Shown piece by piece: positions 9,331 to 47,105 of a stretch of DNA of 64,000 nt. Each line of letters begins with the position of its first letter. Within the stretch, counting starts at the first letter, position 1. Position numbers and translations under genes: made by a program. The stretch spans positions 1-64,000 of the forward strand of contig NZ_JAUAOA010000012.1 in assembly GCF_030542965.1 (NCBI RefSeq), written 5' to 3'. A model generated the notes under the pieces. It made no database searches. It saw only the letters and a list, made by a program, of their open reading frames with translations, and was not told the origin of the DNA. This DNA is from Azotosporobacter soli. GTDB taxonomy: Bacteria > Bacillota > Negativicutes > SG130.

Positions 9331-11367
9331 TTATAGGTTGCTATTTTGCCTATTTCTAAACCTATTTAAAAACAACTCGCCTTTTTCCGTCAAACGACTG
9401 CCGCCTCGCCCGACCTGCGAGCAGACAAAACCGCACTCCGCCAAGATGCTTAAAATACGTCTCACTTCGCCTTCACTGATCTTTACCTGCTGCGCCTTAA
9501 GCGCCTGCCCGATCTGTTTGCGCCCCGCGCCGCCATCGAGGCCCTGGCGCTCGTTCAATAATGCGCTAACCTCCAACGCTTTTTCCAGCTGACAGCGTTC
9601 TTGGATAAACTGCTCTTCCGCGCTAAAATCGTCTTCCGCCTTGATATAATGCGGCAAAGCATCGCTTTGTACCACGTTCTCGGCGGAAAAAGACAAGTAA
9701 GCCGCCGCGTTGGCAAGCTCACGAATATTGCCCGGCCAGGAATAGCGCGCGCAGAGCTCTTGCGCCTGCGCAGACAGCGTTAGTTCACTGCGATTATGCT
9801 GCTGCAAAAAATGTCGCAGCAATAAAGAAATATCCTCCGTACGTTCGCGCAGCGGCGGCATCATGAGCGGCAGCACATTTAAGCGATAATATAAATCCGC
9901 CCTGAATTGGCCGGCTTCTATTTTTCGCATCAAATTCTGGTTCGTAGCCGCGATTACGCGTATATTCACATTCATCACGCGCTGCGCTCCAACCCGCATC
10001 ACCTGTCGTTCCTGCAAGACCCTGAGCAGTCTGGCCTGCAACGCATGCGGCATATCACCGATTTCATCGAGAAAAATCGTCCCCTGATGAGCCTGTTCAA
10101 ACAAACCGGCTTTCCCTTCTTTCAAAGCGCCTGTGAACGCACCCGCTTCATAACCGAACAACTCGCTCTCCAGCAAGGCCTCCGGCACGGCTGCGCAGTT
10201 CACCGCAACAAACGGCATTTTTCGCCTGGGCGACTGATTGTGCATCGACTGCGCCAGCAGTTCTTTTCCGGTACCGCTTTCTCCCGTTATCAAAACCGTC
10301 AGATCGGAATCGGCCATCATGCTCGCCTTTTTTATCAGTTGGCGCATTCTTTCCGATTCCGTCACAATATCGCTGAACTCATATCGGGCCAGCAAGCCTT
10401 TGCTTTGCAGACGTTTGCTGAGATTTTGCTCCAATTGCCTGATGTATGTCACTTCCTGAAAATGAAGATAAATGCCTGCCGCCTCGCCAAACTGTTCCAA
10501 TTCTTTTTTGTTGGCCAGCAGCGAACGCCCCTGCCACTCTACAATTTCATCTCTGAATTCGCCTTGTTTTAGTAGATTTTGCACAGGCTTAGGCAAATTT
10601 TCAAACGTCAGCACTTCTTCACTTGAAAGTTCCAGCATTTTTCGCAGGCTGGCGTTGCATAATCGGATCTGACCTTCACGATCCATCAGCATTACGCCTT
10701 CCGCCGATAAATTGATCACCGTATCGAGCGCCGTATTTTTCAGGTACAACTCTTTATACTGCCGCTTGATTCCGGTGTCGAGCGTTATGATCGATTCGCC
10801 ATATTGGATCAAACGCCGGTCAAGCTCCCTTTCCTCCAAACCTAAGCGGCTCATGATCTGAAGAAATGTCGATAAATCAATGCAGCGGTGTCCCAGATCA
10901 ATCACTTTTGCAATCTGCTGCGGCACACTTGCCGCTTCACCGGGCGTGACCGCAATTTGTATCTCTTCCGTCGAATTCTCTCCAAGATAAGGTTCCAGCA
11001 GCAAATGATCCAAGCCCATTTGATACAGGAGTGCGACGGTTTCCAGCGTCGTTTCCGGCGCGTCATTGACGACCAAAACCTTGCTTCCTGCAGGAATATC
11101 GAGCAATTTGAAGACCGCTTCTTCCTGCAGCGTTCGCTGCACTACCAGTACGCGGCGGCTCTCTTTTACATAGGGCTTGATGGCCAGCGCTTTCGCCGGC
11201 AGCATCACCAGCACGACATCCTCTTCAATCCGGTCGCCCTCTTGCATTTCGGCAAAAGAGTAGACTTTGCTTTCGGCATAACCGTCAAAAATCTGCATTA
11301 AGTTCTCTTGTATGAAAAGACCCAACGACGAGTTGGCGCTGTCGGTCACAATAGCGATCCGTTTCAC
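9331..11367 (-). CDS. sigma-54 dependent transcriptional activator with PAS domain
   Basis: The protein has about 678 residues. The first 180 form an alpha/beta sensory region similar to the receptor domain of PrpR-like regulators, followed by a PAS domain (about 215-310) and an AAA+ sigma-54 activation domain. Walker A is GESGTGKE (about 362-369); the sigma-54 contact loop GAFTGA and the Walker B stretch GTIFLDEIGDMP are intact. The C-terminus looks like a winged helix rather than the usual Fis-type helix-turn-helix. I choose GTG at 11367 because GGAGG lies seven bases upstream. It probably activates the hydrolase-permease operon through the promoter at 9149-9166. Confidence 0.9.
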   Translation of the reverse strand: MKRIAIVTDSANSSLGLFIQENLMQIFDGYAESKVYSFAEMQEGDRIEEDVVLVMLPAKALAIKPYVKESRRVLVVQRTLQEEAVFKLLDIPAGSKVLVVNDAPETTLETVALLYQMGLDHLLLEPYLGENSTEEIQIAVTPGEAASVPQQIAKVIDLGHRCIDLSTFLQIMSRLGLEERELDRRLIQYGESIITLDTGIKRQYKELYLKNTALDTVINLSAEGVMLMDREGQIRLCNASLRKMLELSSEEVLTFENLPKPVQNLLKQGEFRDEIVEWQGRSLLANKKELEQFGEAAGIYLHFQEVTYIRQLEQNLSKRLQSKGLLARYEFSDIVTESERMRQLIKKASMMADSDLTVLITGESGTGKELLAQSMHNQSPRRKMPFVAVNCAAVPEALLESELFGYEAGAFTGALKEGKAGLFEQAHQGTIFLDEIGDMPHALQARLLRVLQERQVMRVGAQRVMNVNIRVIAATNQNLMRKIEAGQFRADLYYRLNVLPLMMPPLRERTEDISLLLRHFLQQHNRSELTLSAQAQELCARYSWPGNIRELANAAAYLSFSAENVVQSDALPHYIKAEDDFSAEEQFIQERCQLEKALEVSALLNERQGLDGGAGRKQIGQALKAQQVKISEGEVRRILSILAECGFVCSQVGRGGSRLTEKGELFLNRFRNRQNSNL

Positions 11368-11585
11368 AGAAGAACCTCCCATATTTTTTTCTATTAACTT
11401 CTGTTTTTTTTCCCGCATTCCTGCGCGCATCGCCCGTCTGAATCGCCTTTTTACACGTCTGCGCTTCCTGCTTTACTATTTTGGCAAAGCAGGAAATTAA
11501 AGGAAATTAGCGAATCTTATTCTTACCTGGATTCTTCTTTTTTCTTGCTTCGCTTGACTGCCAGAAAGGAAAGGAGGCGACTGCC

Positions 11586-12704
11586 ATGCCTATCGTCCCT
11601 GTAAAAGAGCTTCGTCCCGGCATGATCTTGGCGGAATACCTACTGGATCCGCACGGGACTTTTCTCATTGCACCGGGTCAAGTGATCAGCCCCGAATGGA
11701 TTAAGCGTCTGTCGCGCTGGCAGATAAAATCCGTTGCGGTTGAAGACGAACCCGACAGCTTGATTCCGCAGCCGCCAGGCTATAATCGCATCACCGCTCT
11801 TCCTGCCATGTCGACCTTTGCCTTCAAGGCGTTCTGCCAGGAGCAAACGCAAATTGAAAATAAGATCCGAGAAATCTTTGTCGCGCTGCGCGAGAGCGGC
11901 ACGCTCGCGACCGGCGCCTTGCAGGAACTGGTACGCGATCATCTTTATCCCCTGCTTAACTTGCCGAAACTGCCTATTTTCATCCATATGCCCGGCAAAC
12001 AGGAGGATTACCTTTACCGTCATTCGTTCGACTGCGCAATCCTGGCCGGCTTGTTCGCCCGCTGGCTGGAATTTCCCACACCGAGCGTGGCGCAGATCAT
12101 GTTCAGCGCGCTGGTCATGGATATCGGAAAACTATTCGTCTCTGACGATGTGATTAACAAACCGGATACGCTGACGCTCGATGAACGTCAGCAAGCAAAA
12201 GAGCATCTTGAGCTCGGCTACAAGATCTTATTGCAAAACAAACAGGTCAACAGCGCCGCACTGGAAGCGATTTACCAGCATCATGAACGTCTGGACGGCT
12301 CCGGTTATCCGCGCGGCCTGCGGGGCAGCAGCATCCTCCAATCGGCGCGCATCCTGGCGATTGCCGACGTCTACGACGCCATGGTCAGCCACCGCTGTTA
12401 CCGCCAGGGTCTTTCGCCGCTACAAGCCGGAGAGACCTTGCTGAGTTCTATGTCCAGCCAACTCGATAAAGAGATGCTGCATTGCTTCATCGAAGAAATG
12501 CGTCGTTCCTTTTTGGGCGAGAAGGTTCTTCTTTCCGACGGCAACCACGCCCTCATCGCCGCTTTTCCCCCATTGCCGCTGATCAGGCCGCTGGTGCTGC
12601 TGCCGAGCGGCGCCGTCATTCCGCTGACGCATGACAGCAGCGTCGACATCATCCGTTGGGAGACAACCTACTGGGATCCACCCGTTCTGCCCTTTATGCC
12701 GTAA
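11586..12704 (+). CDS. HD-GYP-like protein lacking the HD histidine
   Basis: This 372-residue soluble protein has a beta-rich N-terminal domain (1-60) of the kind common before HD-GYP domains, and an HD-GYP domain (about 140-310). HD-GYP enzymes hydrolyse cyclic di-GMP with a two- or three-metal centre. Seen here: RHS (H146), HHERLDGSGYP (232-242) and IADVYDA, but the signature HDIGK reads MDIGK (M178-D179), so one metal ligand is missing. It may be a receptor rather than an enzyme. AAGGAGG lies nine bases before ATG. It is followed after 19 bases by a B12-binding protein, a likely functional partner. Confidence 0.85.
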   Translation: MPIVPVKELRPGMILAEYLLDPHGTFLIAPGQVISPEWIKRLSRWQIKSVAVEDEPDSLIPQPPGYNRITALPAMSTFAFKAFCQEQTQIENKIREIFVALRESGTLATGALQELVRDHLYPLLNLPKLPIFIHMPGKQEDYLYRHSFDCAILAGLFARWLEFPTPSVAQIMFSALVMDIGKLFVSDDVINKPDTLTLDERQQAKEHLELGYKILLQNKQVNSAALEAIYQHHERLDGSGYPRGLRGSSILQSARILAIADVYDAMVSHRCYRQGLSPLQAGETLLSSMSSQLDKEMLHCFIEEMRRSFLGEKVLLSDGNHALIAAFPPLPLIRPLVLLPSGAVIPLTHDSSVDIIRWETTYWDPPVLPFMP

Positions 12705-12723
12705 ACGTAAAGGAGGCCTTGCC

Positions 12724-13857
12724 ATGTTCAGCAAACTGCTTACGGAAGCTTCGCAGCTCCCCCATGTTTGTGCCGCTTCGACACAGGAATTTCAAAAACA
12801 CTCTGCGCTTCTCCTGCAGCATGTCAACGATACGTTATCGCGTCATCCCAACATCCTTGAAATAACCGGCAATACAAAGCATCAAACCATGCTCGACAAT
12901 CACATGTATCATGCGAAATTTATGCTCACGGTTCTTTATTTCAACAATTATCCTCTGCTCTGCCGCGTTTTAGTCTGGTTTTACCGCACCTATCAGAGCC
13001 GCGGCTATTCCGATTCTTATTTTCCGATTCTCTTTGCCGCCTGGCAGCGAGCCATCGACCGCCATCTGCCGCCGACGGCTGCGGAAGAAATCATTTTGAA
13101 ATACCAGTGGCTGATGGCCAAACACAACACGTTGCTGCAGCTTGCGCAAAATACGACGGCCTTTTCCTTCAGCGACTTCGGTTTGGATGACTCGTTAACG
13201 GATGAGATTCTGACTTCCTGCCGTGAATCGCTCTTAAACGGCGATTATCACTCTTGTCTGGCCTTATCGTCCGCCGATACGCCGGAGGAAATTGCAAGAC
13301 TCTACTGTTGCATCTTACAGCCTTGCCTGTATTCGATCGGCTCGCTTTGGGAGCAAGATGAAATCTCCGCCGCCCAGGAACATCTCGCCACCGCGACCGT
13401 CGCACGCATCATGCAAATGCAGTACAGCAAAATTTCCTCTTTCAACAAGCATATGAAAGGGCCGGCCTTGATTACCGCCGCCCCGGGAGAATACCACTCG
13501 CTGGGCGCTAATATGGCCTCCGACCTCTTGGAACTGGACAACTGGCAGACGTATTTCCTTGGCGGCAATACGCCAATTCCCGACCTGCTCACGCTGCTGC
13601 ATGAGAAGAAACCTTTTCTTTTAGGCGTAGCAGTCGTTCTGCCGTTCAACCTGATCAAGGTGCATGATTTAATCAAAGCGATCCGCTGCGATCAGCATCT
13701 TTCCCGCATCAGGATTCTCATCGGCGGCCCTGCTTTCTTTCTCGATCACACACTTTGCCAGCAATTGGGCGCCGACGGCTATGCCACCGATTCGCAAAGC
13801 GCCGTCACGCTCGCCGACGCCTGGTGGCAGGCCAGACAAAGCGAAGAAAATTCATAA
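12724..13857 (+). CDS. CarH-like cobalamin-binding sensor protein
   Basis: This 377-residue protein has a helical N-terminal domain of unknown function (1-150), a four-helix B12 cap (about 155-235) and a Rossmann B12-binding domain (about 245-375). The cap holds the exact Wx9EH motif (W209, E219, H220) that marks the light-sensing adenosylcobalamin cap of CarH/LitR. The lower ligand is H258 in GEYHSLG, an E-x-H-x-x-G variant of DxHxxG. There is no MerR-type DNA-binding domain, so output must be through protein contact, perhaps with the HD-GYP-like neighbour. ATG 12724 is chosen for AAAGGAGG five bases upstream. Confidence 0.85.
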   Translation: MFSKLLTEASQLPHVCAASTQEFQKHSALLLQHVNDTLSRHPNILEITGNTKHQTMLDNHMYHAKFMLTVLYFNNYPLLCRVLVWFYRTYQSRGYSDSYFPILFAAWQRAIDRHLPPTAAEEIILKYQWLMAKHNTLLQLAQNTTAFSFSDFGLDDSLTDEILTSCRESLLNGDYHSCLALSSADTPEEIARLYCCILQPCLYSIGSLWEQDEISAAQEHLATATVARIMQMQYSKISSFNKHMKGPALITAAPGEYHSLGANMASDLLELDNWQTYFLGGNTPIPDLLTLLHEKKPFLLGVAVVLPFNLIKVHDLIKAIRCDQHLSRIRILIGGPAFFLDHTLCQQLGADGYATDSQSAVTLADAWWQARQSEENS

Positions 13858-13886
13858 AAGGCCGGAGCATCCGCTCCGGCCTTTTA
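13856..13886. terminator. bidirectional terminator
   Basis: AAAAGGCCGGAGC-ATCC-GCTCCGGCCTTTT is a 13-bp perfect stem between two convergent genes. Confidence 0.9.
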
Positions 13887-13888
13887 TT

Positions 13889-14431
13889 TTAGCGCTTCAA
13901 ATAGTCTAGAAGCGGTATGTTTTCGATATACAGCTCTTCGACGACGGCATCGCCGTTTTTGATGCGCACCGCAACCGAGGATTCCTGACCGGCGGCCGCG
14001 CGAAAGGCTTTTTCAGCCTCCGGCGCAAGACTTTCTTCCAGATAAAAGCGGTCGAACGGCAGGTTCACGCTGACACCCGCAGCGCTGACTTGCTGCACCT
14101 TCACGCGGACATATTCTCCTTTTCGCGGGCGCTCAGCCTGAACGCCCTGCAATACGGCATAGCCTTTTTCATCGCGTCCGATCAGCGCATATGCGCGTTG
14201 CCCAACGCCGGGAACCGCCTCACCAACGAGCGGAACCTTATTTCCCTTAAAAGAAAACCGTACATACCTTCCCCGCAGCGCATCATACGGATCGACCGGC
14301 GCGGTCTGCCAACGGTAACTTTGCCCTGTCTGCAAAATATCCTCCCAGCGCCAGACCATATAGAGCGCCGCGCTGACTTGCAGAATCGCCAATACAACAA
14401 ATAACCCTTTTCGCCATGTAATCTGCTTCAT
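13889..14431 (-). CDS. GDYXXLXY-domain membrane-anchored protein
   Basis: This 180-residue protein has one N-terminal membrane segment (about 9-28) and then an extracytoplasmic domain with PYDALRGRYVRF and PFDRFYLEE, the marks of the GDYXXLXY family. Its function is unknown. It overlaps the upstream DUF2157 gene by four bases (ATGA), and these two families are regularly found side by side, so they probably form one membrane complex. Confidence 0.8.
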   Translation of the reverse strand: MKQITWRKGLFVVLAILQVSAALYMVWRWEDILQTGQSYRWQTAPVDPYDALRGRYVRFSFKGNKVPLVGEAVPGVGQRAYALIGRDEKGYAVLQGVQAERPRKGEYVRVKVQQVSAAGVSVNLPFDRFYLEESLAPEAEKAFRAAAGQESSVAVRIKNGDAVVEELYIENIPLLDYLKR

Positions 14432-44723: not shown

Positions 44724-47105
44724 TTATTTATTTTCTTTCATAAAGGATTTTGCAAGCGTGACGGCGTCAACTCCATTGGCGGCAAAACAGTCGGCGGCTG
44801 CGGCGAGCGCATATTCTTTCGTTAAAACGGCGCCGCCGACAATCGTGTAGGGTGAAAGACCGGCTTCTTTGATGGCGGCGATGGTTTCGTCGATCTTAGT
44901 CATTGTCGTAGTCATCAGCGCACAGAGACCGACAATATCCGGTTTATGAATGCGTACGGCTTCGACGATGCAATCGGGAGCGACATCTTTGCCAAGATCG
45001 ATAACTTTAAAACCGTTGTTTTCCAATAAGGCGGCCACGATGTTTTTGCCAAGATCATGAATGTCGCCTTTAACGGTTGCAATAACAACGGTTCCAAGAT
45101 AGGTTTCCGCTTCAGCGGGCAAGTGTTTTTTTAGCGTTAGAAAAGCGCTGCGCATGGTTTCTGCTGCAAGGAGTACCTGTGGTAAGAAGCAGCGTCCTGC
45201 GCCAAAAGCAATACCTATCTCGTTCATCGCGGCGGTAAGCGCGTTGTCCGTGATGACGAGCGAGGAAAAGCCTTCTTGAAGCGCCTGTTCGACCAGCGGT
45301 ATGACGCTTTCTTTTTCGCCCTGCAGGACGGCTGACTTGATCTGGCCAAGCGTATCAAGCGTTAAAGCGGCGGATTTTGCTTCAAGCGGTGCGCTGTTCG
45401 GCGCATACAGTAAACTGTATTGTTGCCCGCAAGGGTCTTCGCCGCGCAGCGCTGCAGCGGCCGCCAGCGTTTCTTTCATTCTTTCGTCGTAGGGGTTAAG
45501 AATGGGCGCATCCAGGCCTGCTTCAAGCGCCATGGCGCAAAAAGCGGCGTTGACGATCGGGCGCTGCGGCAGACCAAAGGAGACATTGCTGAGTCCCATT
45601 GTGCTCGGATAACCTAGTTCTTGGCGGTATAAGCGCAGTGTTGCCAGTGTTTCGAGTGCGGCATTTTGTTCCGCTGCCGTGGTTAAAACGAGGGCGTCAA
45701 GCAAGAAGTCATTCGGCTTGAGCCCCGCAGCAAAAGCGGCTGCGATAATTTGTCGCGCACACTGAAGACGCTCGGCGGCGGTGCGCGGAACGCCTTTGTC
45801 GGAAAGCGGCAGGCAAAGGATCGCTGCGCCGTATTTTTTCGCCAAAGGAAGAAAGCTTGCCAAACGTTCGCTTTCGGCGCTTACGGAATTGATTAAAGCG
45901 CGTCCGGGATAGGCTTTCAATGCACATTCCAGCGCAGCGGCATCGGTTGTATCAATAACCAGAGGAACGTCGACCAACATGGATAATTCATGAAATACGG
46001 TTGTCATCGCGGCTGCTTGATCAATTCCCGGAACGCCCATATTGACATCCAATATTTTTGCTCCGGCGGCGACTTGTCCTAAGGCTTCTTTCTTGACGCC
46101 GATAAAGTTGCCTGCTTTGATTTCGGCAGCCATCGCTTTGCGTCCGGTCGGATTGATGCGTTCGCCGATCAGCGCAAGAGGCTGTTTACTGCCGATATGC
46201 ACCGTTCGGGTGCGACTGGTCAGGGCGAGATCAAAACGGCGCTGACGCGCTTGCCGTGTGACGGAGACATGCAGCAAAGCTGTTTTGACTGCTTGAATAT
46301 GAGCTGGCGTGGTGCCGCAACAGCCGCCGATATAGGAGGCTCCGGCAGCGGCAAGCTTAGGCGCCCATTCGGCCATTTCCGCAGGCGTCATGGGGAATAC
46401 GGTTTCGCCGTGAATCAGTTCCGGCATGCCCGCATTTGGCTGCACACTGATCGGCGTTTGCGCATGAAGGGCTAATTGTTCAATGACTTGCAGCAGCTGC
46501 GCAGGGCCCAGGGAACAGTTTGCGCCGATGACATCGGCGCCTAACGCGCTCAACACGATCGCTGCCGTCTCAGGATCCGTACCGGTTATCGTCCTGCCGT
46601 CCGCGCCAAAAGAAAGCTGACAGATTACCGGTTTCGTCGTCACCGTTTTTGCCGCAATCAAAGCGGCGCGCATTTCTTGAAGATCGATAATCGTTTCAAT
46701 AATGATCATATCGACATCGGCTGCGACAAGTGCGCGGATCTGTTCTTGAAAGACGTCAACGGCAGTGTCGAAGTTCAAATCGCCTAGCGGTTCCAATAGT
46801 TTTCCTGTCGGCCCGACTGAGCCGGCGATTTTAGTGTGCGGTGCGCAGGCGGCGCGCGCGGCTTTCACGGCCGCTTCATTTAGCGTCGCGACTTGATCGG
46901 CCAGCCCGTAATGTTCAAGCTTGATGCGATTGGCGCCAAACGTATTCGTCTCAATGATATCAGCGCCGTTTGCAATATAAGTCTGGTGGATCTTGCTGAT
47001 TGCGGCAGGATTTTCGAGATTCCACAATTCCGGACAATAACCGGCGGGCAATCCGGCGGCTTGCAGCATCGTTCCCATGGCTCCATCAAATACAGATACC
47101 TTCAA
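44724..47105 (-). CDS. metH: B12-dependent methionine synthase lacking the activation domain
   Basis: The 793 residues contain the homocysteine-binding barrel (1-290; DGAMGTML, zinc ligands in GANCSLGP and GGCCGTTP), the pterin-binding methyltetrahydrofolate barrel (about 305-560; GERINPTGRK), the B12 cap (about 580-665) and the B12 Rossmann domain (about 670-793; KGDIHDLGKNI with the lower-ligand His). It transfers methyl from methyltetrahydrofolate to homocysteine. The S-adenosylmethionine-binding reactivation domain found in E. coli MetH is absent, but a separate gene upstream encodes it. It starts with TTG overlapping the upstream stop (TTGA). Confidence 0.93.
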   Translation of the reverse strand: MKVSVFDGAMGTMLQAAGLPAGYCPELWNLENPAAISKIHQTYIANGADIIETNTFGANRIKLEHYGLADQVATLNEAAVKAARAACAPHTKIAGSVGPTGKLLEPLGDLNFDTAVDVFQEQIRALVAADVDMIIIETIIDLQEMRAALIAAKTVTTKPVICQLSFGADGRTITGTDPETAAIVLSALGADVIGANCSLGPAQLLQVIEQLALHAQTPISVQPNAGMPELIHGETVFPMTPAEMAEWAPKLAAAGASYIGGCCGTTPAHIQAVKTALLHVSVTRQARQRRFDLALTSRTRTVHIGSKQPLALIGERINPTGRKAMAAEIKAGNFIGVKKEALGQVAAGAKILDVNMGVPGIDQAAAMTTVFHELSMLVDVPLVIDTTDAAALECALKAYPGRALINSVSAESERLASFLPLAKKYGAAILCLPLSDKGVPRTAAERLQCARQIIAAAFAAGLKPNDFLLDALVLTTAAEQNAALETLATLRLYRQELGYPSTMGLSNVSFGLPQRPIVNAAFCAMALEAGLDAPILNPYDERMKETLAAAAALRGEDPCGQQYSLLYAPNSAPLEAKSAALTLDTLGQIKSAVLQGEKESVIPLVEQALQEGFSSLVITDNALTAAMNEIGIAFGAGRCFLPQVLLAAETMRSAFLTLKKHLPAEAETYLGTVVIATVKGDIHDLGKNIVAALLENNGFKVIDLGKDVAPDCIVEAVRIHKPDIVGLCALMTTTMTKIDETIAAIKEAGLSPYTIVGGAVLTKEYALAAAADCFAANGVDAVTLAKSFMKENK

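Follow-up and report, generated by a model that had tools for sequence, protein, structure and literature searches.

Gene B of Azotosporobacter soli encodes a protein that joins a B12-binding half, which by its signature belongs to the AdoCbl-photoreceptor kind, to an N-terminal domain that in structural models is a photoglobin-like globin fold. On balance, we favour the reading that it is a standalone AdoCbl sensor, probably of light, that would work without bilin and act in trans on c-di-GMP signalling. The gene lies in a window of 64,000 nucleotides, the whole stretch of DNA that was analysed, and follows gene A, which encodes an HD-GYP-like protein. The host is taken to be an anaerobe from its class membership, a class-mate genome being that of a named Sporomusaceae MAG.

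The gene pair and its B12-binding half

11570–11577, + strand: ribosome-binding site of gene A, AAAGGAGG, read from the sequence
11586–12704, + strand: gene A, HD-GYP-like protein of 372 aa (P0001; Pfam HD_5 5e-28, HD 2.5e-13)
12710–12716, + strand: ribosome-binding site of gene B, AAGGAGG, read from the sequence
12724–13857, + strand: gene B, globin-B12 sensor protein of 377 aa (P0002; Pfam, homologue alignment)
13854–13887, strand not assigned: 15-bp hairpin with T/A tails, probable terminator (stem read directly)

The two genes share the + strand, have a strong ribosome-binding site each and are separated by a gap of 19 nt. For gene B we prefer the ATG at 12724 to the mechanical open reading frame start at 12631, which is less likely because it overlaps gene A and because homologues align from the Met at 12724. 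Within the pair, a hairpin is found after gene B only, and it is probably a terminator that gene B shares with the convergent gene at 13889; hairpin sites of such kind are not more numerous than in shuffled sequence, the 15-bp stem itself being a direct reading. Gene A shares its 155-bp 5′ intergenic region with a divergent sigma-54 activator gene (9331–11430, − strand) encoding PAS and C-terminal winged-helix domains, and inspection of this region by eye revealed no obvious sigma-54 promoter. The window's other B12 gene (44724–47105, − strand) codes for a protein of the ordinary methionine-synthase type, in which pterin and B12 domains are present.

13228–13416, + strand: four-helix part of the B12-binding region (Pfam B12-binding_2, 6.5e-7)
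13348–13383, + strand: W209-x9-E219-H220, the adenosyl-group pocket signature of AdoCbl photoreceptors (sequence, homologue alignment)
13465–13803, + strand: Rossmann-type B12-binding domain (Pfam B12-binding, 2e-12)
13489–13497, + strand: E256-x-H258, where His258 is predicted to be the lower axial ligand of cobalamin (from its counterparts CarH His177 and SasPcob His108)
13561–13575, + strand: GxxxP element G280–P284, which completes the SignatureFinder light-response signature (sequence; signature from PMC11796333)

The B12-binding half carries the complete SignatureFinder signature, as G206xxW209, E219H220, G255xxH258 and G280xxxP284; the corresponding elements GxxW, EH, GxxH and GxxxP were derived for light-responsive B12 domains (PMC11796333). 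A sequence-only reading had pointed to an exact Wx9EH motif and a lower-ligand His in this gene, and both are borne out: 12 homologues, with identity down to 21%, all keep W209, E219, H220, E256 and H258. Among the other B12 domains of the same genome, which has 10 B12-domain matches, Wx9EH is absent from all six that are readable (L001–L003, L005, L006 and L008). Its invariance in diverged homologues and its absence from these domains together indicate that the motif is not due to chance. The best PDB match of the B12 part in a profile search is the photocobilin SasPcob (8j2w/8j2x, E = 3.5e-24), ahead of CarH, and 8j2w leads by fold too, in a comparison that used only the B12 part of a full-length model of low confidence (pLDDT 62). 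NCBIfam CarH matches the B12 part at 2.8e-15, far below that family's full-length cut-off.

This pocket bears directly on what the protein senses. In known cases W-x9-EH serves AdoCbl photochemistry, which argues for light and against the proposal that gene B senses AdoCbl supply, with the apo and AdoCbl-bound forms acting differently on the partner and any response to light being incidental. That proposal does have support, in that AdoCbl binding alone changes the cyclase activity of AbDPcob (PMC10979010), full CarH conversion requires oxygen (PMC10442372), and the A. soli genome encodes two PduO-type adenosyltransferases besides its many B12 domains. Against the light reading stands also that light is of little obvious use to many sediment or gut anaerobes. 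Genes for the synthesis or uptake of cobalamin were not noticed next to homologues, in a neighbour scan confined to signalling domains, and we consider sensing of AdoCbl supply somewhat unlikely. Light, AdoCbl supply and oxygen or redox state are alternative candidate inputs of gene B, of which we prefer light.

The HD-GYP-like protein and gene couplings across the family

12021–12470, + strand: HD-GYP domain of gene A, residues 146–295, with the HHE...GSGYP motif intact
12117–12122, + strand: degenerate HD motif, Met178-Asp179 in place of His-Asp (homologue comparison)

Gene A begins with a DUF3391-like stretch (a weak match), followed by an HD/HD-GYP domain. The H, HHE and GYP motifs are intact, as in HD-GYP phosphodiesterases (4mcw, 5z7c), so that the domain qualifies as HD-GYP, and PDB relatives include the phosphodiesterases 5z7c, 4mcw and 4r8z. 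Unlike these, gene A lacks the HD metal-ligand pair: the His of the HD motif is kept in 17 of 17 compared paralogues and relatives, and gene A has Met178, with an ATG codon several changes away from a His codon. The description of gene A as an HD-GYP-like operon partner stands on its Pfam HD_5 match and the 19-nt gap, with the correction that HD has become MD. This change, which we take to remove a metal ligand of the HD domain, makes full phosphodiesterase activity doubtful, and we think it more likely that the protein is a module that binds c-di-GMP, or one with weakened enzyme activity, than that it is a full phosphodiesterase. The genome has about 35 HD-type and 35 GGDEF matches; this abundance, with the adenosyltransferases, indicates that cofactor and pathway are likely present in the host.

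Relatives of gene B were found in genome contigs by a search with a two-row alignment, which recovered nine; a single-sequence search with the gene B protein (P0002) found none. At the other sampled loci no HD-GYP gene is adjacent to a homologue, and the pairing is seen in the own genome only. A conserved pair of B12 sensor and HD-GYP protein, whose co-occurrence had been proposed as a check, is thus rejected on these loci.

The homologues are instead coupled to other signalling genes, often with overlapping stop and start codons. The coupled gene encodes a PAS-GGDEF-like protein in L050, a GGDEF protein in L051, L055, L090, L091, L124–L126, L128, L136 and Ilyobacter, a GGDEF-EAL protein in L093, and a histidine kinase in L052, L056, L057, L127, L129, L133–L135 and L137–L139. 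In Ilyobacter polytropus, a named anaerobe, the homologue overlaps the GGDEF gene. Genes for c-di-GMP enzymes make up 19 of 67 adjacent co-directional genes versus 5 of 215 distant ones, at least three places from the homologue (Fisher p = 2.5e-9), and all signalling kinds, c-di-GMP and histidine kinase, 34 of 67 versus 25 of 215 (p = 1.3e-10); these p-values are optimistic, as they come from related loci and from a small, incomplete set of domain queries, but the trend is plain. Furthermore, a plasmid of Pontibacillus sp. ALD_SL1 (L164, 1613–3097) encodes an HD-GYP domain, with its HD intact, fused to a Wx9EH B12 domain without a globin, which suggests that a B12 input and an HD-GYP output of such kind can act as a unit. 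The couplings and this fusion support the link to c-di-GMP signalling that the sequence-only reading had drawn, and make it stronger than that reading could have known.

Other neighbourhoods are more varied. In the class-mate genome G021 the homologue is divergent from the gene of a CheB-CheR-PAS-SpoIIE protein (L039); in another, G117, it is preceded by a gene for a response regulator and by an extended open reading frame that looks CheA-like by eye (L089), a hint of chemotaxis output. Separate globin and B12 genes occur at L056, L057, L141, L142, L144 and L147, where a GGDEF or histidine kinase gene frequently separates the two or adjoins them; at L144 and L147 the gene between the two is about 200 aa long, and the one of L144 gave no Pfam match. 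For a further set of globin-B12-like proteins, at L149–L153, the coupled genes encode an FtsX/MacB permease and an ABC ATPase, so that the output there may be transport instead of signalling. On Streptomyces plasmids (L158, L160), photocobilin-like genes lie beside gas vesicle genes, and beside PP2C phosphatase and STAS genes.

The lack of an HD-GYP neighbour elsewhere raises the question of whether gene A adjoins gene B by chance, with gene B acting on another partner such as a GGDEF protein. The many HD-type and GGDEF matches of the genome are in keeping with this, and a chance HD-GYP neighbour would be an event of about 1–2% given the HD-type count. We think it somewhat doubtful, since the genes share strand, close spacing, ribosome-binding sites of their own and a hairpin after gene B only, and since relatives at other loci are coupled to c-di-GMP enzymes and the Pontibacillus protein joins HD-GYP to a B12 domain. 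We continue with the co-transcribed HD-GYP-like protein as the preferred partner.

The globin domain and its bilin site

12724–13170, + strand: globin-fold (photoglobin-like) domain of gene B, residues 1–149 (AlphaFold, Foldseek, hhalign)
12895–12912, + strand: D58-N59-H60-x-x-H63 motif at the bilin site (alignment, hhalign)
12976–12978, + strand: Trp85, equivalent of SasPcob Trp296, invariant in the aligned family

The N-terminal domain of gene B matches no Pfam family and had been described as an unknown helical domain in place of MerR. The absence of MerR holds, as neither Pfam nor NCBIfam gives a match to a MerR-type DNA-binding domain in gene B, but a new, unknown domain is ruled out by the fold, which is that of a globin. 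The AlphaFold model, made from an alignment with 15 homologues, is confident (mean pLDDT 95.2), and the 50 matches listed by Foldseek against the PDB are all globins, with a far-red allophycocyanin core first and smURFP-biliverdin and heme globins among the others (E 0.01–0.1, probability about 1.0). A PDB profile search placed allophycocyanin beta first (E = 0.13) and listed the SasPcob globin (E = 1.9), matches that are individually not significant and were used solely in combination with the fold and hhalign; LH1 beta and Atg16, also weak matches, were set aside as chance. With photocobilin-like globins from Streptomyces, Azospirillum and Skermanella plasmids and Asp-type ones from Desulfobacterota as the photoglobin set, hhalign aligned the gene B globin set to it over 111 columns (probability 93.8%, E = 1.7e-7). 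The modelled fold and this alignment together identify the domain as a photoglobin-like globin. Gene B thus has a B12 and a globin-fold domain on one chain, the architecture of photocobilins, and its N-terminal globin is one of the two domain orders already noted among them (PMC10979010).

Biliverdin is bound by Asp270 in SasPcob, where Trp296 touches both this pigment and the corrin (PMC10979010). With SasPcob numbering converted through the phmmer match (chain W56 is W61, hence chain 291 is W296), Trp296 aligns with the invariant Trp85 of gene B, whereas the Asp270 position falls on Asn59 in a phmmer-based alignment whose register is identical in hhalign. This position is Asn (or His) throughout the group that we call DNHxxH after its motif. 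Across several phyla no stretch of the globin domain is better conserved than this motif, and two relatives have it deleted (L090, L091). Hosts of the group include Sporomusaceae-class genomes, Desulfobacterota, a Spirochaetales MAG, a Clostridia MAG and I. polytropus. A third state, Tyr, besides Asp and Asn occurs at the bilin position in L136, L137 and L139. In a tree of B12 domains the fused members form one group of 18 rows, including the two with the motif deleted (support 94/91), which adjoins split globin/B12 pairs and N-terminal Asp-type proteins; the DNHxxH group, when drawn to include the split pairs, is not one clade.

The supply of bilin follows a similar pattern. Heme oxygenase (PF01126) was found in none of 22 genomes with the Asn/His motif, the own genome (G000) and 21 others, with positive controls, many of the searched genomes being incomplete MAGs in which single absences mean little. 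By comparison, two of six Asp-type genomes have heme oxygenase, each time directly beside the sensor gene (L133, L134), and three more B12-domain loci have an adjacent heme oxygenase gene (G412, G464, G703). Desulfobacterota heme oxygenase genes beside B12 sensors lie at L133 (6900–7487), L134 (4699–5328) and L138 (4213–5484), with the bilin Asp kept in L133 and L134. Anaerobilin synthase, the radical-SAM route, was found above cut-off in none of 27 genomes; all 27 match its model below cut-off only, as expected for related HemN/HemW-like enzymes. The pattern of heme oxygenase absence fits a loss of bilin. Since the bilin-binding residue and the bilin supply were both tested, and gene B has neither the biliverdin Asp nor a host found to make biliverdin by heme oxygenase, it should not be filed as a strict photocobilin; it is photocobilin-like in architecture.

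The conservation of DNHxxH across phyla, in replacement of the bilin site, might mean that the globin binds another ligand there (heme, metal or gas) and that light or B12 is integrated with a redox or gas cue. Although heme globins are among the closest folds, we regard this as unlikely: the motif may serve packing against the B12 domain only, and L090 and L091 do without it. That gene B is a true photocobilin, its globin still binding biliverdin or another bilin from neighbours or an unrecognised route and coupling red light to B12, is very unlikely, for although the fold is close to allophycocyanin and smURFP-biliverdin structures, Trp85 is conserved, D58 adjoins the lost Asp and AbDPcob with His at the Asp270 position binds biliverdin weakly (PMC10979010), Asn or His takes the place of Asp270 in the whole group, with a deletion in two relatives, heme oxygenase is missing from all 22 genomes and yet next door in two Asp-type relatives, and no searched genome has anaerobilin synthase above cut-off.

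Proposed mechanism and known systems

From the computed domains, fold, conserved residues, family gene coupling and heme oxygenase absence we infer a bilin-free AdoCbl sensor of the CarH/photocobilin kind, whose globin would no longer bind biliverdin by the known mode. In the dark, gene B would bind AdoCbl base-off through His258 as a head-to-tail dimer; Trp209, Glu219 and His220 would form the pocket that holds the adenosyl group, and the N-terminal globin would cover the corrin edge with Trp85. Green light, possibly also AdoCbl loss, would strip the adenosyl group and alter dimerisation, and thereby change the contact of the protein with an output in trans. The likeliest output here is the HD-GYP-like protein of the same operon, with its presumably reduced catalysis, and in relatives a GGDEF cyclase or histidine kinase. 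The in-trans arrangement is implied by the separate genes. Published work on AbDPcob and SasPcob gives a precedent: illumination raises AbDPcob cyclase activity more than tenfold, and photocobilins supplied as separate proteins alter a cyclase in trans (PMC10979010). W209 is followed by Glu210 in gene B, where CarH has His132, so the bis-His light state of CarH is not expected, and the output may differ from that of CarH.

Photocobilins (SasPcob, AbDPcob; PMC10979010) are the closest comparison, with a CarH-type B12 domain bearing W-x9-EH and ExH, a globin-fold domain with the Trp296 equivalent, a c-di-GMP output (AbDPcob) and known trans action on a cyclase; at the CarH His132 position they have Gln or Tyr, likewise no His. 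Gene B differs in its Asn for the biliverdin Asp, in hosts without detected heme oxygenase and in having its output in separate genes. It shares with photoglobins and the bilin-biosynthesis-associated globins BBAG-2 (Schneider et al. 2022 as cited in PMC10151467; PMC10151467) a globin tied to a B12-binding protein, and profile similarity; split globin and B12 gene pairs occur here too, at L056, L057 and L142. Gene B departs from them in having neither the CXQD nor the RGMC motif, with DNHxxH instead, and in that searches of its genomes found no heme oxygenase. With the MerR-type AdoCbl photoreceptors CarH and LitR it shares the B12 signature and the predicted lower-ligand His, unlike them lacking the DNA-binding domain and a His132 equivalent. 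Large-scale mining of light-responsive B12 domains has been reported, including phosphodiesterase and BBD-CBD fusions (PMC11796333), and individual family members may therefore already be in the lists there. A small literature search, with the founding photoglobin paper outside its scope, found no account that brings together loss of the bilin site, lineages of anaerobes and c-di-GMP coupling throughout the family.

A broader reading, which we see as possible rather than probable, is that gene B represents a group of B12-globin sensors that do without bilin in anaerobe lineages, and in which the photocobilin globin was repurposed, with DNHxxH, after biliverdin loss; an AdoCbl-light signal, perhaps with a second ligand, would feed into c-di-GMP control, here through a catalytically degenerate HD-GYP protein. 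If true, AdoCbl photosensing would be placed in anaerobe lineages seemingly unable to make bilins by heme oxygenase and tied to c-di-GMP by many gene couplings. The family would offer a natural test of the photocobilin globin half without its pigment, and a sequence rule, Asp versus DNHxxH, to tell two-pigment from B12-only sensors. Compact B12-only parts would be useful for optogenetics if they function without oxygen.
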